Assembly (NCBI GenBank): GCA_027619225.1 | Contig: JAQCFW010000002.1 | Location: 62,001 to 126,000 of the forward strand | DNA length: 64,000 bases | From: Bacteroidota bacterium | Lineage (GTDB): Bacteria > Bacteroidota > Bacteroidia > Flavobacteriales_D > Sanyastnellaceae | Direction of reading: 5' to 3' | Part shown: positions 5,157 to 21,200 of the stretch, in pieces | Layout: the number at the start of each line of letters is the position of its first letter | Position numbering within the stretch: position 1 is the stretch's first letter | Notes under the pieces: generated by a model | Databases searched by the model: none | What the model was told of the DNA's origin: nothing | The model's input: only the letters and a program-made list of their open reading frames with translations | Made by a program: the position numbers and the translations under genes

Positions 5157-5888
5157 TCAAATTGCAAGTTTCTGAAGTCTTTTGTACAGAGGTTGGCATT
5201 GGAGTAAAAGAGGCGTTAAATGCTGAGGGAATGTAGATTTTTTAGGAATGAACTTCTTAAAACCAGTTGAATCATGTGTGCTTGAATACCAATATTTAGC
5301 CCAAATTCCATCTTCTTTTTTAGGGCCCGACTTCCATGTCAACATCGCTGAATCAAATACAACTTCGGCTCGTTTACATAACTCCCTAAGTACTCTTTCA
5401 GCGTCATCCTGTATCGATTTTGAATCAACAACGATGGGGGTGATTCCTTCCCTGTTAAAGTAATCTAAGAGTTCAATGTGAGCATCATATCCTGTATCAC
5501 TCAAAGATGGATTCCTAATGACTTTGTCATACGATGGCAACATGTTTTCAGGGTCCCTTGTCAGAATTACATTTACCACATCCTTCATAAAACTCCTATC
5601 TATTCCTGGCAGATGATGGGTCATATTTTTGAAGAACAACACCTCGGTATGTTCCCCGAAATCACCAGTCATCATCTCAACTACTTTCGCTCCATCTTGC
5701 TCCATAGATGCCATAATTTCTTTAGCGGCGGGGTGTCGTGTGCGCTCATCTTCAGAAAGTCGTGACAAATAATGTGCATATAAAGGCTCATCTACAACTT
5801 GAGAATTGTTCAGTTGTGCAAAGGAGTACATAAGTGAAGTAGATATATTCCTTGGACCGGACCAAAGACAAATTCTAACTGGCTTCAT
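5157..5888 (-). CDS. Sulfotransferase-like protein
   Basis: A 243-residue cytosolic protein resembling the sulfotransferase / P-loop superfamily. Near the N-terminus SGPRNISTSLM (residues 10-20) matches the phosphosulfate-binding loop of PAPS-dependent sulfotransferases. The later segment NVILTRDPENMLPSY fits the conserved strand and Arg/Ser pair that contact the 3'-phosphate. No signal peptide is present. Its start codon lies inside the last codons of the upstream class IV aminotransferase (14-bp overlap), indicating one transcript and probably translational coupling. The acceptor substrate is unknown; the pairing suggests a small amine or amino-acid-derived compound, which is inference. Confidence 0.7.
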   Translation of the reverse strand: MKPVRICLWSGPRNISTSLMYSFAQLNNSQVVDEPLYAHYLSRLSEDERTRHPAAKEIMASMEQDGAKVVEMMTGDFGEHTEVLFFKNMTHHLPGIDRSFMKDVVNVILTRDPENMLPSYDKVIRNPSLSDTGYDAHIELLDYFNREGITPIVVDSKSIQDDAERVLRELCKRAEVVFDSAMLTWKSGPKKEDGIWAKYWYSSTHDSTGFKKFIPKKSTFPQHLTPLLLQCQPLYKRLQKLAI

Positions 5889-6786
5889 TTGTGATGAGTT
5901 CTTTATAATGTCTTTGCAATTGTTGTGTCACAGGACCCGCCCCACTAGAAATAACTCGCCCATCTATCTTTGTAACAGGGGTCAAACCGCCAAAACTGCC
6001 CGTCACAAAAGCTTCGTCCGCAGAGTAAGTGTCAAACAATGAGAAATCTTTTTGACGACATACAATCCCCTCTTGCTCACAAATATGAATCACATTGTTT
6101 CTCGTAATTCCATTCATACAATATGCTCCTGTAGAAGTCCAAACCTCATCTTTTCTTATTAAAAAGAAATTCGTTGCATTACAAGTAGAAACAAAACCTC
6201 TGACGTCTAGCATTAGGGCCTCATCACAACCTGCTTCTAGTGCTTGAACAAGTGCTTGAACCTCATGGATTTTGCTGTGGCAATTCATGCGAGGATCTAA
6301 ATAGTCTGGCGAACCTCTTCTTACGGTACTCGTAAAAAGTGTGACCCCCTTTATTGAAGATTCTTTACTTGCTTTCTTATGCTCCGCGATGATCACTAGA
6401 TTAGGCCCACTCAATAAGAGTCGGGGATCCTGCGAAGGGGTAGTCTTAGTACCACGTGTCAACATTATTCTAACGTGAACATCAGTATGCATGTCGTTTG
6501 CATCCAGCGTCAGATGAACTTTTTCAAGTAGCTCTTCTCTACTGAAATTCATTTCCATACCTATAGAGGCAGCACCTGCCCACAAACGGTCAAGGTGTTG
6601 ATTTGAAAAGGCGAGAACACCGTTATAAAGCCTCATCGCTTCCCAAACACCATCTCCTACTAAATACCCACTGTCAAATACGCTAATCTTAGCCTCCGCC
6701 CTTTTAAACAAATCACCATTGATGTAGATCAATACATCGTTGTTCCTTTTATCTGGCTCAGCATTATGTGTTCCGTGTATCATCAA
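5875..6786 (-). CDS. Class IV aminotransferase-like protein (BCAT/DAAT fold)
   Basis: A 303-residue protein of the fold-type IV PLP family (branched-chain and D-amino-acid aminotransferases, ADC lyase). Recognisable are the N-terminal ISVFDSGYLVGDGVWEAMR segment, the Arg-containing VRIMLTRG strand, GCDEALMLD, NFFLIR and the C-terminal ADEAFVTGSFGGLTPV block that holds the cofactor phosphate. By hand alignment the usual Schiff-base Lys position is Asn (in RMNCHSK, with a Lys four residues later), and the Glu that normally contacts PLP N1 is Thr (VSTCNATNFF). It may therefore be a divergent subfamily rather than a standard IlvE or Dat. It overlaps the sulfotransferase-like gene by 14 bp. Tandem ATG codons begin the frame. 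Confidence 0.8.
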   Translation of the reverse strand: MMIHGTHNAEPDKRNNDVLIYINGDLFKRAEAKISVFDSGYLVGDGVWEAMRLYNGVLAFSNQHLDRLWAGAASIGMEMNFSREELLEKVHLTLDANDMHTDVHVRIMLTRGTKTTPSQDPRLLLSGPNLVIIAEHKKASKESSIKGVTLFTSTVRRGSPDYLDPRMNCHSKIHEVQALVQALEAGCDEALMLDVRGFVSTCNATNFFLIRKDEVWTSTGAYCMNGITRNNVIHICEQEGIVCRQKDFSLFDTYSADEAFVTGSFGGLTPVTKIDGRVISSGAGPVTQQLQRHYKELITNEAS

Positions 6787-6820: not shown

Positions 6821-6958
6821 ATCTGCTAAATACGACACCCCGACATTTGTCCAACGATGAGCACAAATAAAAAGAAAGTAAAGGGAGCCCTTTCTAATCT
6901 TGAATCTTCTTTGTGAAAAAGGAAATATAATTACAACACACACAGTATCTTGCCCAAG

Positions 6959-7363
6959 ATGAAAACAGTGAGCTACATTTTAATATTTTCTATTTCTTGT
7001 ATTGGATGTAAACCCATGGAAGAGAGAATCCTTGGTACTTACGATATTAATCCAGACAGAGGGTGTTCTAATTGTGTAGAAAATGGTCCGGAATTAATGG
7101 TCTTTGAGGATTGGAATATCGATAATGGAAGTCCCGGGCACTATAGTTTTAACTACGAAAACGGAGAGGGTCACTCGGGAACCTACGATTTTTTTCAGGT
7201 TGACACTATTTTAAAATTAATGCTATACCCTGACAGTACTTCCTTTGAGTATTATGGCATACTGGGCACAACTCAGCAAACAGATTACAAAGTTGTAGGG
7301 AATAAGATAAAGGAGAATTGTGATGGACTCTTAAAAAACTGTGTTTGGGTGAGGAGAGAGTAA
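6959..7363 (+). CDS. Small lipoprotein of unknown function
   Basis: A 134-residue protein with a lipoprotein signal (MKTVSYILIFSISCIGC, lipobox ending at Cys17). The mature part (start KPMEERILGTYDI) looks like a small lipocalin/META-like 'cost of formation' domain: a GTYDI strand, repeated GHYSF and GTYDF strands and a final VWVRRE. This fits a beta-sheet fold, but no family is recognised with confidence. The start is set at the ATG giving the signal peptide. It is a single gene, divergent from the aminotransferase and convergent with the gene remnants at 7380. Confidence 0.65.
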   Translation: MKTVSYILIFSISCIGCKPMEERILGTYDINPDRGCSNCVENGPELMVFEDWNIDNGSPGHYSFNYENGEGHSGTYDFFQVDTILKLMLYPDSTSFEYYGILGTTQQTDYKVVGNKIKENCDGLLKNCVWVRRE

Positions 7364-7379: not shown

Positions 7380-9353
7380 TTACTGATGAATAAAACGCAT
7401 AGCATGGCTTCCATTGATTAAAATAATGTAGGAGCCATCCGACCACGACGAGACATCCAATTCCGTCCGCTTAGATAAACTAGACCAAGTCCCAATTTTC
7501 TGCCCCATACTGTTGAAAGCCTGAAGCATCTCAATTCCCAAGTTTGATTCTATCGTTAAAACTGATTTTGCAGGGTTGGGGTACAAGCGAATCGAATGAG
7601 AGCTCAACGACTCTTCTACACCAAGCTGAATTTCATTCAACACCCAACTTGACGCAAAGTGGTTGTCCAAATCGACGGACACCAGCTGCAAAGATTCTTG
7701 ACCCAAAACAGGAACAGGCCAAGGTTCACTCGTTTTATATCGAACATGATCTATCACTACGCCTGAGGTATTCATGAGGATGATACGCTCCCCCTCATTG
7801 GACAACTGACCTGAGTCCCATTGCAAGAGTTGATCTGTTGTATTGTCAAAGAACGTCAAATCACGAACCAACAAAAGGCTTGCACCTGCTTCCAATGTGG
7901 TGCCTTCTGGAATGGTCATGTAAATCCCATCGGAAACGCTGTATCCAGATAAATCAATGGATTCGTTCCCAGCATTAAGCAAACGCAACCACTCTTTGTT
8001 TGAATCTTCCAAGCCCGCGTACCCGATTTCAGAAATCATGATGTCACGAGGTCCTGAGAAAAGATGACTTTCCGAACCCCAATCAGATCCGTCAGATGAT
8101 GCAGCGATAGCGGGCGACGCTTCCAACAAAGTGAAATCAAAGTCTGTAGGAGATGAAAAATGGGGATTAGCCCATGAAACATTGGTACCCGTGAGTGTAT
8201 CTGTATCGTAGTAACTGTCTTCTACTTGGAGGACAGATAGAGAGTCAGAAAAGACTGGAGAGTCACTTGAGTTGGACAACAAAGAGCTGCTTATTAATGC
8301 AGTACCACCACCTAAACCCGGATTCTTTTCGTAAGCGCTAACAGCAATCTGATTGCCATAAAAAGTTATGTGATCAAGGTCTGCGCCTCCCAAATCCTTG
8401 ATAGCCACTCCCAGTGCACATTGGCTGATGATATTGTCTTGAATTGTGGCTGTGGAGCTCTGCCCTATGGAAATGCCTTTGTCTGTACAGTGATGAATCA
8501 AACAACCTTCTATTAAAACATCATTGCTTTCTTCACCCAAATCAATCCCATCGCTGTTCAGTCCAAAAAATGAGTGTATCTCGGAATTTCGTATCACGCC
8601 ATTTGTTACTTGGTCATAATCGATGGCGTCGGTATCGGGTGAATTGTTACCGATAAAAGTGCAATTTTCTATAAATGCTGATCCATATTTCACGTTGATT
8701 AAATCACCCGTAACATCAGAGTGGATGGTGCTGTTCGTTAAGCTTACGCTAGAATGTTCTGCATAAATGGGGTTGCTGTGGTTATCCGTTATAATCGCTT
8801 GATCGATATTTACAACGCTGAACCATGCTGTCAAAGCCGCGCGATCATGGACCGGATGGTCTCCATTCGTAGCCCCCTCAATAACGATGTTTTTAAAGAT
8901 ATTCACGCCACTAGATTCACTCAGCTTTATATGGCCCCATTCGGTGACTTCATTAGCTACATTAGCTTTGAAAACAATCGGGGAATCGTTTGTTCCCATG
9001 GCTTGGATATCACCTTCAATAATCAAGCTAGCTTCTTCGGGAAACCAAATTTCTACTCCTGGCTCAATGGTCAGAGTGGCCCCTGATGAAACAAGGGTTG
9101 TACCAATTGCGAGGTAGGGTGAACAGGAGAGTGTCAGGGTCGTGTCGGTTGGCAACACCAAAGGGAGTGTGCATTGACCCGTTGGTTCATATCTCGCAAC
9201 AAAACCAGAATTTCCAGTTAAGGATAACGGCCAAGGATTGACGTCGGAAATAATCTCATCTGAAACAACAGAGGCAGATAAAGACAAATCGAAGCTGATG
9301 TCGGAACTCGTCGAAGATATTTGATGAATCTCGACTGCGATAACATTTTCTCC
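7380..9353 (-). pseudogene. 3' part of a beta-helix / lamin-tail-domain T9SS protein, lacking its own start
   Basis: The frame is open from about 9353 to 7380 (657 residues) but has no signal peptide or proper start. It opens with GENVIAVEIHQ and SDISFDLSL, the usual end of a beta-sandwich module in T9SS CotH/lamin-tail proteins. Next comes a right-handed parallel beta-helix rich in Asn and Ile turns (about residues 60-400). A lamin-tail domain follows (MISEIGYAGLEDSNKEWLRL through WDSGQLSNEGERIILM), then a T9SS sorting domain (LYPNPAKSVLTIES to the end). The N-terminal half expected for such a protein is absent; instead the upstream DNA encodes an M43 protease in another frame. It is probably the 3' end of a gene truncated by deletion. 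Confidence 0.7.
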
Positions 9354-10071
9354 CCCAAGTATGTTTAAGGTTTGCCCAATGCCCTACTTCGTGGGTTAAA
9401 ATTTTATAGTGTGTCCAAACAGCTGTTTCTGTACGTCCCACTGCCCAATACGAACTTACGATACCATCGTAAATGGACCCCGAACCTTCTACATCGGCAG
9501 GATAGTATGCGAATGCGGATCCATTTCCACCATTAGAAGAATACACAACCCATATATTCAAATACATCGTCGGATCCCATTGAATCATTTGTTTGAGAGC
9601 TATATCACTCCCGTTATAAGTTAATTCTGACTGAATTCTATTAATTCCTGTCGTGGGTTCTCCATTTGGGTCTAGTTCAGCCAAACGGAACTCAAAGCCT
9701 ACATTCGCTATTAAATCAGTAAAATTTGGATGAACATCAACCAATTCAGGATTTACAGCTGCATAATCTTCATTTAACTGAACGATAGATTCGTGAATTT
9801 GAGCATCGGAGATATTCTCTACTCCATTGTCATGAACAACATGAAAGACAATTGGAATAAGAAGATTTACAGAACTTTGAACAGACTGATTTGCAGAGAA
9901 ATTATGAGTAAAGTTTTCTAAAAACTGTCTTCGAGCTTCTTGTGCTGGAATTAACTCGGGATGTTCCTTTTGCATTTTCTTTCTTTGCTCTGTATGAGCA
10001 CAAGAATGCTGAGCCAACAATGAAGAGCTACTAATAAGCATTATTGTTAAAGCAAATAATAAACGTTTCAT
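9256..10071 (-). pseudogene. 5' part of an M43 (pappalysin-like) metalloprotease, truncated after the zinc site
   Basis: A signal peptide (residues 1-20) and propeptide-like stretch precede a recognisable M43 catalytic start: LIPIVFHVVH, AAVNPELVDVHPNF, GFEFRLAELDPNG and TTGINRIQ. The zinc site HEVGHWANLKH follows (His227, Glu228, His231, His237). Normal M43 enzymes continue with a Met-turn and then sorting domains. Here homology stops at TWG (residue 240, position 9352) and the frame runs into unrelated out-of-frame residues to a stop at 9256. The next frame continues as a different protein. The product would lack the Met-turn and a sorting signal, so it is unlikely to be an active secreted enzyme. 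Confidence 0.75.
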
Positions 10072-10173: not shown

Positions 10174-13100
10174 TTAGCAGGCAGTCCCGAAGGCCGATAA
10201 GAATATAAGTAAGTCTGACGTAGAAACAGAGCTATCACCATCAAGGTCCGCTGGACAAGCATTGGCGGTAGTGTTGAAGGTACAAGTGCCGTTATCTAGT
10301 GTAGCAGCTGAATCGTAATTGACAGCATCATCGTACGTGCAACCCTCACAAGAAATGAATTCACAAGACAGATCGTCCACAGTAGCATATTGGCTGTAAT
10401 TGCATGCACAAGAGTCCATGCACCCTGGGACTTTAAAGTTGGAGTCCAAACTAAAGAGCGTGAGTGATCCCGTTTCGTCGTTGGAGACCAGTATGGACTC
10501 GTATCCTTCATTGCCTCCAGTAACTGACGTATTGCCGGTGATGGTAGAACTCAAGAACAACACGTCTTTGGCTCCCAAATGATTAAAGGCACATTGATCC
10601 ATGGTTGGATTTTGGAAATCTCTGTTAGTGGCATACGCCTGATAAGAGACCGAGTAATTATTAAGAAGGTCATCCAAATTGATATTGAAAATCATAGAAC
10701 CACCCATTTCCTCCAGCGACACAATGAGAATGTCCTTTCCGTCCAGCATACCATGTGCAATTCCCGCCGGCTCTGGGCCACGAGAAATAGAAGCTTGATC
10801 ACCAGAAGTGTAAGAGCTTTTCAAAGAATTCGCGTAATAAGGCATAAGCTCGGCCAATTTATCTTCAATCAGCGATTCACTATCGTAAACCTGGGAAAGG
10901 CTACCAGTTGTAGTGATGTCCCATAGAGAAAAAGAACGAGAACCAAAGACGTAAGAAGGATCGCTGGGGTTTCCTGTGGCGCCAGAGCCGTACCTCGCAT
11001 CAATTTCCAAGCTGCTATAATCGCCGCAACCACCGCAAAAATTCACGTCTTCTGTATCTCCGGCGTTTTTGGACGGTAGGCCTTCGTTGGCAGTCAATAG
11101 GATTGTCTTTAATCCACTAACGACGATTTCCATGTCCCCAGGCTGATACCAACCTAAGATCGTTCCCGGCGTCGGCGTCGCGACCGTGGCAAACTCGTCA
11201 TAAATTCCATCAAATCCGTTGCCAGAACTCATATCTCGGTACCCGAAGCCGTATGCTCCTTGAATCACATTCAAACCTGAAATCACATTGCCTAAATTTA
11301 CTTCCACCAACGTGTTGTTTACTTGGCAATTCACAAAGGCTCGTTGGCTATCAGGTGTGATAGCGACGTGCGAGGGTTCAAGCAAGTGAGACAAGCCGGG
11401 AGTGCCGTCGTATTGCGAGGTGCGGGCTTCAAAACCGGTGATAGCCAGAGGTCCTCCGCCAACGATGTATTCGTCGTCAAAATTTATCGTGTAGCTCACC
11501 ACATTCGCCCAGGTGGGAGCCACAGGGTCTTGGGTGTATCCCAACACGTTGATGCAAACAATCTCAGCCTTAGGATCACCCGCATCGTACTCCCCTTCCC
11601 CTGAGCATGCTACTACCAACCATTCACCGTCTGGGCTGAAGGCCAAACTTCTAGGGTTTGGACCTACTTCATGAATGGCTTCAATTTCATCAAAGAGAAT
11701 TCCATTGGTGTTATGTAACGTGACCCAACCAGGTAAGGTCAAATCATAGGGGTCAATCCACGCCACCGCAACCATATTATCGGGTCCCTCCATATTGTAA
11801 ATATCTACATCAGACGGAACCAAACCAGCCCTTAATACACTGGTTAACCCTCTCAAAACTAATTCCGACGCAATATCATTAGCTGAAATGGATCGGAAGC
11901 CCCCTATCCCATCAGAAATCGGCACTGGATTGCCCAAATCCCCATAGTTAATAATGTCAACCGATCGCATGTTCTCATTCACAACGAAGGCACGTTGTCC
12001 GTAGTTACAGAATGCCAATTGAGAAGCACCAGTTGAACAAATACTGCTGGCAACCATTTCAGAGGCCACGGGTTCTTGCCCAAGATCCATAGGAGGAAGC
12101 AAACCTCCTTGTTGAGCGATCTCAGCCAGGTTAAACGAAGAAATCCAGTACTCCATCACTTCGGCCTCCTCGCATATGAGGGTGTTATGAAGTGGACTGT
12201 AATTGGTGGTGTTCACATTGTCGCAAAACATAGGGATTTCCAATTCGTCACAAATCCCGTCGCCATCCTCGTCGCCTTGGCATCCCTGATCATTTTCACC
12301 CTGATCATCTTCAACCATCGGCACCATGATGGTGGACCCTAAATTCCAAGAAGAAAAATAAGGCACATCCTGATTTTCATCAGCAACCAACCATTCGGAT
12401 TCGTTCACTTCGGTATTTCCTTGAAGGACCCCTGGTTGACGTACAATTCTATGTTGTCCCGGAGCATGGTTAATTCCGTTCAAGGTCACGTTGGGCCAAG
12501 GCGTTCCATCTTGGTACAAGTTATCGAGCGTGTTCCCGGTGTCGTCTTGCAATCGAATGGACACTATTTGGGAGGCCGTGGGTGCGTTGGGCCCAGAGGG
12601 CAGCTGAAGGGTCAATACTTGTTGAAATAGAGGTGCTTCGACAGTGACGACGAATTCAGGCGAGTCTTCAAAGTTGATGGAAATTGTGAATGCAGAGGAG
12701 CTGGCTTGTCCTTGTCCTTGTCCTTGTGCCAAATTGACCTGAGGGTTACAAATTCCAATCTTCACAAAATCGGCATCAAACCATCCGTTGTACATCGAGA
12801 AAAATGGAGCAGCATTCTGAACGTACGACATTTCTAGAAACGGGTTGCTAATCTCGAGCCAAATGGGGATGCCGCCCCCACACAGGCCCTGACCATTGCA
12901 CACTCCGCACACGTCGACAATACCTACGCAATCGTCTATATCGTCACAGATTCCATCATTATCTGCATCCGAAGTACAGTTTCCACCACATACGCCAACT
13001 ACGTCAGGGTAGAAGCAGGTGCCGTCATCTTCAATGGCAGATGCTGAATAATTGCATGCGTTGGGGTAGGTACACCCCTCTATTACTGTATAGCACGAAT

Positions 13101-14079
13101 CGAAATCACAAGAACCGTCGTCCGAAGTTGCCATTTCGTTGTAGTTACACGCAGCTGAATAGGTACAACCACTGATAAAAATGACACAAGAACCATCATC
13201 GTCAGTTGCTAATGGATTGTAGTTTTCAGACAAAACATCTGTACAACCAAGAATTTCAAATAAATTACAAATTCCATCTCCGTCTGAATCAACTATACAA
13301 GAGCCATCACAATTATAACCTGTTACTAGGTAAATACAACTTCCTTCAAAAGCAATAGTTGCAGTGGAATCGTAGTTACAAGCAGTAGAGTCAGTGCAAC
13401 CAACACAAGAAGTGAATTCACAAGAACCGTCATTAGTGTCAGCAGCAGAATCATAGTTACAAGCAGAAGGATCAGTACAACCTAGTTGGTAACAACTGAT
13501 GAAATCACAAGAACCATCGTCAGAAGTTGCAGAAGGATCGTAGTTACAAGCAGTATAATCCATACATCCTGAACAAGACAAGCAAGACCCCACAAAGTCC
13601 AAACTAATCTCATTGGGGGTAAAGGATGAGCCAATGAAACTCAGCCCAACATCCCAAATTCCTGTAAGATTGTAACCGGACCATCCCGATACATTGAGAA
13701 TGAAAAAGCCCCCCCCAAGTGTTGAGTTATCCCAAGGAATGATTTGAGAGGAAGGGCATGAGTCCTGGCTCAAAAACCCATCGTAGTTCTCAGAGCTCAA
13801 AAGCCCTGAGCTGGCGAATCGCATCGGGTAGTTCGCTCCCGGTCGACGTATGTCAATGACAAGCATGTCTGGGTTCTCCACTCCTGAGAAAGTCACTTTG
13901 ATTTGTTCCAGATAACAAGCGGTGAGTTCCGTCGATAATGAAGTGGGACTGCAATAGTTAAAGTTATGGATTGTATCGTTAAAGACAAATTCAGCTCCAG
14001 GATCATCGATGCAGTTTGTTTGTGCCATCCCTACAATAGGAAGAGCGAGAGCAATCAAAATGAGAGTAAGTCTATACAT
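10174..14079 (-). CDS. Large secreted protein: Cys-rich repeats, beta-propeller and dockerin-like end
   Basis: A 1301-residue exported protein. Signal peptide MYRLTLILIALALPIVGMAQ (start set at 14079 for this reason), a beta-sandwich-like N-terminal region, then six 'GCTDxxACNYDxxATxDDGSC' repeats (about residues 175-370) with intervening Ca-binding DSDGDGIC motifs. The middle (about 640-1190) resembles choice-of-anchor/YVTN beta-propellers, with PRSLAFSPDGEWLVVACSGEG and PSHVAITPDSQRAFVNC blades. Two more Cys-rich repeats follow, and the protein ends in a single EF-hand-like loop DLDGDSSVSTSDLL and the terminal FGTAC. It has no canonical T9SS sorting domain. A surface or matrix role is likely; no catalytic residues are recognised. 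Confidence 0.85.
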   Translation of the reverse strand: MYRLTLILIALALPIVGMAQTNCIDDPGAEFVFNDTIHNFNYCSPTSLSTELTACYLEQIKVTFSGVENPDMLVIDIRRPGANYPMRFASSGLLSSENYDGFLSQDSCPSSQIIPWDNSTLGGGFFILNVSGWSGYNLTGIWDVGLSFIGSSFTPNEISLDFVGSCLSCSGCMDYTACNYDPSATSDDGSCDFISCYQLGCTDPSACNYDSAADTNDGSCEFTSCVGCTDSTACNYDSTATIAFEGSCIYLVTGYNCDGSCIVDSDGDGICNLFEILGCTDVLSENYNPLATDDDGSCVIFISGCTYSAACNYNEMATSDDGSCDFDSCYTVIEGCTYPNACNYSASAIEDDGTCFYPDVVGVCGGNCTSDADNDGICDDIDDCVGIVDVCGVCNGQGLCGGGIPIWLEISNPFLEMSYVQNAAPFFSMYNGWFDADFVKIGICNPQVNLAQGQGQGQASSSAFTISINFEDSPEFVVTVEAPLFQQVLTLQLPSGPNAPTASQIVSIRLQDDTGNTLDNLYQDGTPWPNVTLNGINHAPGQHRIVRQPGVLQGNTEVNESEWLVADENQDVPYFSSWNLGSTIMVPMVEDDQGENDQGCQGDEDGDGICDELEIPMFCDNVNTTNYSPLHNTLICEEAEVMEYWISSFNLAEIAQQGGLLPPMDLGQEPVASEMVASSICSTGASQLAFCNYGQRAFVVNENMRSVDIINYGDLGNPVPISDGIGGFRSISANDIASELVLRGLTSVLRAGLVPSDVDIYNMEGPDNMVAVAWIDPYDLTLPGWVTLHNTNGILFDEIEAIHEVGPNPRSLAFSPDGEWLVVACSGEGEYDAGDPKAEIVCINVLGYTQDPVAPTWANVVSYTINFDDEYIVGGGPLAITGFEARTSQYDGTPGLSHLLEPSHVAITPDSQRAFVNCQVNNTLVEVNLGNVISGLNVIQGAYGFGYRDMSSGNGFDGIYDEFATVATPTPGTILGWYQPGDMEIVVSGLKTILLTANEGLPSKNAGDTEDVNFCGGCGDYSSLEIDARYGSGATGNPSDPSYVFGSRSFSLWDITTTGSLSQVYDSESLIEDKLAELMPYYANSLKSSYTSGDQASISRGPEPAGIAHGMLDGKDILIVSLEEMGGSMIFNINLDDLLNNYSVSYQAYATNRDFQNPTMDQCAFNHLGAKDVLFLSSTITGNTSVTGGNEGYESILVSNDETGSLTLFSLDSNFKVPGCMDSCACNYSQYATVDDLSCEFISCEGCTYDDAVNYDSAATLDNGTCTFNTTANACPADLDGDSSVSTSDLLIFLSAFGTAC

Positions 14080-14343
14080 AACGTTTATGTTTATAAATTT
14101 AACATAAGAATACAACTTATTTCTCTGAATTCCAAGACATAACTACGCTTAGTCAAATCTCGATGCACTCTGCACCAAAATTGAATGATAAATTCCAACT
14201 TACTTATGCATCTAATTCCAATCTTAGTGAGGGTAAGGTCATTGTTTGCCCTCTGAAATAATTAGTGTCTTTTTCTAATCTTGATAGTGTCAACCAATAT
14301 AAGGAGTTCATTGGCAATCAAAATGAGTTTTGTTGTTCCCATT
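14080..14343. other. Divergent intergenic region between the propeller protein and the S8 protease
   Basis: No gene seen. The right part leads into the protease promoter at 14344. No clear minus-strand promoter with TAnnTTTG was found for the 14079 gene. Confidence 0.5.
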
Positions 14344-18273: not shown

Positions 18274-21200
18274 TTACTCGCAAACGGTTCCAAAGACGGA
18301 CAGTATCGCCAACAAGTCTATCACTGTTGTGACATCATCATTGTTCACATCCGTATTCTCACAATTGACAATACATCCAAACTCTGACAAAACCATAAGC
18401 AAGTCTGCAACTGTGATAATGTTATCATTATTTAAATCAGCAAAGCAGGTTGAATTAGGATTGAAGAACCCGAAATCGACGGTATTGTTTCCACTGCCAT
18501 CGTAATCAAATAAACAGTCAAACGGATCCCCATCGTTCAGAGGTTCATCTCCAAGGCTCAATGTCACTATACCCGACATAATGTCTGTAAAAGATGCACC
18601 GAAACCGTTGTTATCGAGGTCTATATCATTATCTGCATCGGCTATAAAGATGTTGGTGGATTCGAAACCATAAAGAGGCTGCCCTTCTTCCCAATTGTCA
18701 ACTTGCCACACAAAAACAACGTAGTTTCCTGGCTCCAAACCGGAGAATCGATAATAACCATCTTCATCTGTGATCTCTACACCACTGAAGCCTTGCCAAT
18801 CTGGCACCTCGTCACCGTCAGAATCACTCCAAAGAACAAGTGAAACACCAGGAATACCAGGCTCATATGGATCATTGACACCGTCCATATTTAGGTCATT
18901 CCAAACCCTGTTTCCAATCGAGACAATGCCAGGCACCACTTGCTCTTCACAGTCAGTATAACAAAATGCCATATCGTTAATGGCCAAGATCATTTCTTCA
19001 CCAATTGCTTTTCCAACATTCAGGAAAGTCAGCGCATTGTTGTGAAAATGATGGATCGAATTATCGGGCGATTGCTCATCGTCAATATAAAATTGTTTGG
19101 TATCCGTAAAACCAACGGAGCCTCCATACAGCGTATTGTTACAACCTACGTTTTCCTGTGCTACAGAAACTATATTCTGCATGTTCTGTACCCACATATC
19201 GTTGCTCAACATAAAACCTCCGTGGCCAGAATTTGCCACAACCACCGGAAGATCTGTGTTGCCCAAATCACTCCGCACATCGTTGACTAAGTTATAGAGA
19301 TTATCCTCATATTCTTCCAGAAATTCCGGTGTCGCACCGTCGTTCCATCCCTGAAACCAAGCAAATCCAGAAATCTCAAAATCAGTCACGCCTATCTCTG
19401 GAAATTCGGACCCGAGGTTTTGAGTCACTTCGTAAACTGTTTCTATCATATCGTCATAATATGCACCGGTTATGCCCCCTGCGGATGGCGGACGAAAATC
19501 TTCTGCCAGATTCTTTCCACCCCAAGCGGTTTTGATGATTAATATTGGATCATCATAATAGGCATCCAATTCATGTGCAAACATCAACTCTGGACCAATC
19601 AGTTCTGAAAATGTGCCCTGGCCAACAGTGATGTTTTCTCTGATTGTATCACCATTGTTTGCAAAGTATATGTAAGCGTCATTCAATGTCGTCCAGCCTT
19701 CTACTTCCCCGAGCTCATCCCAATATCCAACTTCGTCGTTTTCGATCACATGAACCAGGGTACCAGGATCATTTTCTGCATCCTCTATCTTTCCATATCC
19801 CTGCATATTCGATTGACCTGCGAGCACAAATACCCTCACTTTTTCCGGCGTGGATTCCTGCCGCGTTACAATTGGCACATAACCGATTTCCAACCCAACA
19901 GGTGGCTCCACAATCACGCCTGGATCTAGTGTCGCTAGATTCCCCACTGCCGGAGGCGCCATATACTCATCGGTGTGGCTCCAATTGGAATGAATTAACT
20001 CCACACGGGCCTGCATCTCTTCACGCATCTCTTCGGGAAGATTTGCATGCACAATTGCCGGCTGATCAACAAAACGATACCAATGGTAAGTCACAGTCGA
20101 GCCGTCTCCTAGGTCTGCATAAAAAGGACCTGCCATTGGCCCTGGGCTGCTCCATGGACCATACGGGTCCTGCCAGGCACAATCTGGCTCAAGTGGAGTA
20201 AGATAACTGACTTCCGGTCTTGCACTGATGGGAACTTCTGAAGTCATTAAATTCGTTGATGCTGGAACATCTTGTGCATCAATTGCGTGCCATTCATTGT
20301 CTGATTCTAACCTGAAATATTCTGGCAAGACAAAATATCCGTCATCTTCAGTGACCGTATTCAAATTAAACTCCCATCCCATAACATTAGAAGTCTGTTG
20401 AACGTTCTGGATATAATCCAAGGCAATCAAATACTCATCTCCACCACCAGCGATTTTACCAAAAACAGATCCACCATTGTTGACAAATGACACACTGTTA
20501 GCTCCATCCTGCATCGATTCAGCTGAAACCATTTCACCGCCGTTAAACCAGTCTACCATTGCATCCCAAAGTGATTCCTGAGAGTAAACAGCTATCTGAC
20601 TCAATGCCATTGTACTGCTTTCGTTGCTCGCTGGGAACTGTAGTTGTTCAATCTTCGCATAAGGTGTTCCTTGGCTATCCTCCGACATCAAGGCCGGAGA
20701 GACCGCATGCTCCAAGCCTTTGCCGAAATTGGGGTTTGAAGGACGGGTATCGAAGAACAAACCTTCAAGCGAAAAATCCTCCAAAGCTGGTTCTGTCCAG
20801 AAGGTAGGCATGAAGAACGTAGCCGGACCACTGAAATTTGTCGTATTTAAAAACAAGGTCCAACATTGGTTTCCGGTCTGGACATCCTGACCATTTGTTT
20901 GCTCCAACACTTCCGTGATTGGCAAAGGCGTGTAGCCGTAGCCAAGCATCTCACCATTGAGACCTTGTGCCATATTTAAGCCATCTGGAGACCACAACAG
21001 CCGGTTGGATAGCTGCGCAACACCATATTTACCACCGGGTGTGCTCCAGTCACGTTGTCCATTTCCTAGCATGTCGCTGCGACCAGCACCAGGGCCGTTC
21101 GCCCAGGCAAAAAAACCATTCGACACACCGCCCATAATGAATTTGGGAATCCGAGTGCCGAAACGGGTGTCGTGCCACCAGCCTAATCCACCTTCAATAG

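Follow-up and report, generated by a model that had tools for sequence, protein, structure and literature searches.

By sequence comparison, two separate genes are joined out of frame at an exactly defined break point in the draft genome of an uncultured flavobacterium (49 contigs, rated 97% complete). One encodes an M43 metalloprotease and the other a CotH / beta-helix / lamin-tail protein with a T9SS sorting domain. The join lies in the window, by which we mean the whole analysed stretch of 64,000 nucleotides, and it does not represent a new protein but either a deletion variant of an ordinary kind or a chimera of the assembly. It probably arose by a recent deletion of several kb at a short microhomology, with an intact allele also present among the organisms sampled. 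The features around the join, in window coordinates, are as follows.

6950..7363, plus strand: flanking gene past the stop of the second gene; homologues are likewise placed in the genomes G006 (93%) and G009 (72%)
7380..9359, minus strand: CotH / beta-helix / lamin-tail / T9SS-sorted protein gene, 3' part, stop codon included
7407..7586, minus strand: T9SS C-terminal sorting domain PF18962 / TIGR04183, profile matches above cut-off
7734..8051, minus strand: lamin tail domain PF00932, residues 445-550 of the frame 7383-9383
8346..8816, minus strand: right-handed beta-helix region PF13229, residues 190-346 of the frame 7383-9383
9256..9352, minus strand: out-of-frame extension of the M43 frame, closed by a stop
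9291..9359, minus strand: 69 bp identical to the last bases of contig C40 (2987-3055), starting at the switch base
9353..9359, minus strand: microhomology CTTGGGG, 7 bp, common to the M43 gene of G010 and the CotH gene on C40
9360..10071, minus strand: M43 (PF05572) metalloprotease gene, 5' part, with the N-terminal region and the catalytic domain up to the third zinc histidine of HEVGHWANLKHTWG
10174..14115, minus strand: upstream neighbour of the M43 gene, 1313 aa, with a choice-of-anchor I domain (PF22494)

The open reading frame at 10071..9256 (minus strand, 271 aa) starts as an M43 metalloprotease and contains the motif HEVGHWANLKH; HExxHxxxxxH is the zinc-binding motif of M43 proteases. 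The TWG codons following the third zinc histidine overlap the microhomology, and past HEVGHWANLKHTWG the frame becomes RKCYRSRD... before it stops. PF05572 is matched at profile positions 11-94 of 152 (E 1.3e-7), i.e. as an incomplete domain, whereas it is nearly full (11-151 of 152) in both relatives scanned, G036 and G010. The window copy thereby resembles M43 peptidases in the motif and its flanking sequence but differs from them in being truncated inside the domain. It is 91% identical to the M43 protein of G010 and 86% to that of G036. Whole orthologues comprise 1234 aa (G036) and 1240 aa (G022). That of G010 has at least 770 aa, is cut by a contig end and adjoins a homologue of the gene at 10174-14115, which is 76-78% identical and also cut by a contig end. 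Fifteen M43 loci from named records were compared, seven of them close (69-90%), and three of these seven appear identical to the G010, G036 and G022 records. In all seven the same open reading frame runs on in frame through the break point, one of them (L213) being cut by a contig end and another (L217) split later. At L217 (9989-13831) the orthologue consists of two open reading frames (640 and 597 aa), with the split beyond the position studied here. The Met-turn belongs to the part of the M43 domain that is absent from the window. With the end of the catalytic domain and the C-terminal region absent, the M43 product of the window should not work.

The 3' part of the M43 gene was not found in the assembly in searches with the G036 and G010 sequences. 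The G036 3' part gave 83 matches, the best by E-value on C7 (E 4.2e-27, 41%, residues 630-834), with C26 reaching 66% identity across the final 60 residues and a paralogue on C27 reaching 51%. We rejected these matches as the missing part and take them for domains or repeats that other proteins have in common with it, or for the paralogue on C27. The single match to the G010 query was the same paralogue (47%), which is not the missing part either. Contig C45 consists of 2721 bases that are N throughout and therefore allows no comparison, so that the missing piece could lie there.

The second frame extends without interruption from 9383 to its stop at 7380 (minus strand) and carries beta-helix, lamin-tail and Por_Secre_tail domains. 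The front of this gene is found on contig C40 (3055 bp), where an open frame of 860 aa with lamin-tail, Fn3-associated and CotH domains extends as far as the last base and continues in frame in the second part of the join in the window. Before the switch, the true second gene as present on C40 reads '...VALQLTLLGGENVIAVEIHQ'. The parts from C40 and the window together correspond to single open reading frames in the relatives G036, G017 and G019 (1488, 1502 and 1502 aa, respectively), CotH / beta-helix / lamin-tail T9SS proteins of about 1500 aa with the same domains as the two parts combined. C40 matches their residues 1-842, 26-861 and 15-859, and window 9287-7380 matches residues 854-1488, 863-1502 and 862-1448. 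Compared to these proteins the window keeps only the last 659 residues or so, and the front is absent. Among the two genes, the C-terminal sorting domain of T9SS type A cargo is present in the second only (PF18962 and TIGR04183 above cut-off). An N-terminal signal peptide was not recognised on the second frame, which opens at 9383 inside M43 sequence; the earliest start listed for it, a TTG at 9287, gives a product whose beginning does not look like a signal peptide by eye. Read in this way, the second part is without a secretion signal because it is without the front of the gene, and for the same absence the beta-helix product of the window should not work. As the join is out of frame, this expectation extends to both products of the window.

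The assembly yielded no second copy of the beta-helix part, and the 13 other genomes of the genus, several of which are incomplete, yielded no CotH orthologue (best match 36%). An assembly search for sequence extending C40 leftwards returned the query only. At this left end (C40 1-164, locus L011) lies the start of a divergent gene (MVKTLPALL...DTEFWFVAPEVWAGHGDFPILLRFATF), which is cut by the contig start and whose continuation was not found in the assembly.

The first-pass annotation had described the M43 part as intact up to the third zinc histidine, with homology stopping there, and had read beta-helix, lamin-tail and sorting domains in the other frame. Its coordinates and domain calls were right, as PF05572 ends at position 94 of 152 and the profile matches confirm the domains of the frame open from 9383 to 7380. 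Its statement that both frames are natural across the same 20 or so bases was too generous, because the 'QTLNI' that seems to precede the switch comes from reading M43 DNA out of frame.

In the relatives the two halves belong to two separate genes. An M43 gene followed by the beta-helix part was present in none of six stretches from relatives and at none of the 15 M43 loci, at which beta-helix matches with E 1e-6 or better were considered. Matches to each half were obtained in at least 59 of 60 genomes, and among the matches listed these are mostly distant paralogues or shared domains. The M43 and CotH genes of G036 are on different contigs, and no genome was found in which the two are adjacent. 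The M43-to-beta-helix arrangement of the window is no new protein architecture.

The frame switches at 9359/9360 (minus strand). The 7 bp CTTGGGG (9353-9359) can be attributed to both genes and are present in a single copy at the join; in this call the gene of G010 stands in for the organism's own missing M43 parental sequence. With this stand-in, the two parental genes carry the direct repeat that a microhomology deletion needs. At random break points between both genes, a microhomology of at least 7 bp occurs with a frequency of 0.0006. The last 69 bases of C40 are identical to window 9359-9291 (minus strand), beginning with CTTGGGGGAGAAAA, and the two sequences diverge directly before.

The terminal 25 bases of all 98 contig ends, of which 96 are informative (C45 is all N), were compared with the ends of the other contigs, the window, five small contigs and some loci. 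At least 17 end matches between different contigs were detected, at least seven of which, C40 included, are exactly 69 bp long; the other ten comprise 30, 40, 63, 70, 71, 84, 95, 96, 98 and 98 bp. Since contig interiors were searched only for the window, the five small contigs and some loci, the count is a lower bound. The overlap at the end of C40 thus has the usual length for this assembly and starts at the base of divergence, and the recurring 69-bp overlap may be taken to mark a branch in the assembly graph. Such a fixed length at the divergence base indicates that k-mers of both joins were probably present in the reads. Compared to 69 bp, a homology of 7 bp is far too short for joining in the graph, so that real molecules with the join probably existed. 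The assembly would then have preferred the junction path over the C40 path. In the excerpts of PMC9889960, the assembler of that study picks branches by coverage. A search of the assembly for a second branch on the M43 side returned the query only. The left end of C49 has a 69-bp overlap with the interior of C36 at 1178, which is possibly another such branch.

Genes of the window at 5.2-7.4, 14.4-16.6 and 28.9-47.6 kb occur in the same order on one contig of G006 (83-97% protein identity). The collinearity has gaps: the window genes at 0.3-5.1 kb, those at 16.8-28.6 kb and some isolated open reading frames are unmatched in the stretch compared. Both flanks of the join follow the order of this one contig, gaps included, and an origin of the window's contig from two distant genome regions was rejected on these grounds. 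Between the homologues of the genes at 6950 and 14373, G006 carries a mutY-like gene (TIGR01084, E 4.2e-82; 275.8 bits, just below the curated cut-off of 286.5) and a 187-aa open reading frame in place of both genes studied. Adjoining its 6950 homologue are 47 bp, 40 of them identical, which resemble the last codons of the second gene (contig C8 of G006, 87704-87750; 19704-19750 in locus L195). The same contig contains at 85954-86127 (L195 17954-18127) a C-terminal end resembling M43/choice-anchor proteins (38-48%); this likeness is not specific, since similar C-terminal ends occur elsewhere on the contig. Both pieces look like short leftovers retained by G006 in this interval.

In G009, mutY (78% identical) lies about 2 kb from the 6950 homologue. 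Eight stretches of the genus around the homologue of window 5875-6786 were compared. The 6950 gene is present in two of them (G006 and G009), both of which have mutY, and the other six contain neither gene within the stretch fetched. A mutY orthologue was not found in the assembly of the window, where the sole match is weak (32% over 67 residues). Either the organism has lost the gene, or the gene lies in a segment that was not assembled or in C45, which is all N.

We regard a recent microhomology deletion beside an intact allele as the probable origin of the join. Two copies of CTTGGGG would have recombined, or replication would have slipped from one to the other, with loss of a segment reaching from inside the M43 gene to inside the CotH / beta-helix / lamin-tail / T9SS gene, both on the same strand; one copy would have remained. 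As far as the place of mutY, the gene order and the size of the skipped part can be deduced, the ancestral order from left to right may have been the 6950 gene (plus strand), CotH (minus), the divergent gene of C40 (here X, plus), probably mutY, M43 (minus), the choice-of-anchor gene (minus) and the 14373 gene (plus). The M43 and CotH genes would then have been neighbours in this sense, and the deletion would have removed the 3' part of M43, probably mutY, gene X and about the first 833 CotH codons. C40 would represent the intact allele of the same sampled population, and the junction would have existed in living cells.

The two genes would have lain in direct orientation in a common neighbourhood, to which the flank order in G006 and the 47-bp remnant may point; no genome with both genes intact and adjacent was found. 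Neither half contains stops or frameshifts, and dN/dS of the M43 half is 0.20 versus G010 (237 codons), which indicates that the break is recent. Absence of decay is compatible with a deletion, as a fresh deletion would be without decay, too. Against a deletion, the intact allele is visible on one side only (C40) and a contig for the other side was not found; furthermore, the collinearity with G006 has gaps, and the CotH orthologue was not found in the 13 congeners, several of them incomplete.

The first-pass annotation had proposed just such a deletion at short homology between two secreted-protein genes, and CTTGGGG, the orientation and the flanking synteny support it as the probable explanation. 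Its rejection of a simple indel in one gene agrees with the homologues, which are two genes, and with the front of the second gene on C40. A continuous M43-to-lamin-tail frame, named there as a refutation, did not appear at any of the loci and stretches compared. On its question whether homologues of the halves are separate neighbouring genes, the comparison shows that they are separate; adjacency was seen in no genome.

Spontaneous deletions at short direct repeats are common in Salmonella chemostat cultures according to the excerpts of PMC3411829, in which a microhomology longer than expected is a sign against ligation chimeras. Two points of the same study speak against a deletion here: it deduced a cut-off of at least 8 bp of microhomology for true deletions (7 bp here), and joins in the same orientation that span over 5 kb were classed there as duplications, not deletions. 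Spontaneous RecA-independent or microhomology-mediated deletions, for example those of PMC3411829 and PMC5426353, resemble the window in having a repeat at both ends of which one copy is kept, in the direct orientation and in the loss of the intervening DNA. Unlike such deletions, the proposed one of the window is known from an assembled contig and not from verified molecules; its 7 bp fall just below the 8-bp cut-off of PMC3411829, and its several kb are inferred.

The main alternative is an artefact: a chimera formed during library preparation or amplification, or a false join made by the assembler or gap-closer, would link the two genes, and both would be whole in every cell. We consider this a serious possibility, at odds clearly below even. 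The genome is a draft of 49 contigs, C40 supplies an intact path for the second gene, neither gene is decayed and no genome was found with both genes adjacent. In addition, mutY and the M43 3' part were not found despite 97% completeness, as expected if the contig skips sequence. However, the join is local and its flanks are ordered as on one G006 contig, which is rarely so in random chimeras. Chimeras from whole-genome amplification can be local. The 7-bp overlap, far below the recurring 69 bp, also speaks against a chimera, since it suggests that real molecules were present and preferred to C40. Chimeric or strain-mixed metagenome contigs resemble C40, a short contig whose end overlaps the inside of a second contig by a fixed length; the join in the window differs from them in being local and at a microhomology instead of a k-length repeat.

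It is very improbable that the deletion is fixed in the organism and that C40 stems from a second CotH copy, a related strain or a contaminant. Neither an intact M43 gene nor mutY was found in the assembly, as this would require, but the 69 bp common to C40 and the window are identical, no second beta-helix copy was found, and none of the 13 congeners yielded the CotH orthologue (best 36%). A tandem-duplication junction would fit the flanks less simply than the microhomology deletion. A single fused protein, interrupted by an error of one base or by a programmed frameshift, has a negligible probability, although the five-G run of the junction might be cited for it; it is rejected on the homologues examined (0 of 15 loci, 0 of 6 stretches); its M43 moiety would be without the end of the catalytic domain, and the second gene has a front of its own, on C40 and in three relatives.

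These results call for caution, as the truncated M43 frame and the frontless beta-helix frame could both be annotated as proteins, whereas the real genes in relatives encode 1234 aa or more (M43) and about 1500 aa (CotH). The overlap of C40 suggests a simple way to screen for such junctions that needs no reads, namely to look for a small contig whose end overlap has the assembly's typical length and begins at the suspect base. Should the deletion be real and extend over mutY, the window would carry a mutator allele from nature, possibly a frequent one. A further-reaching reading, in which mutY and parts of two exoprotein genes are deleted in the majority allele of a mutator lineage with an altered cell surface while the intact allele persists, is unlikely; if true, a natural flavobacterial population would have been caught mid-change.
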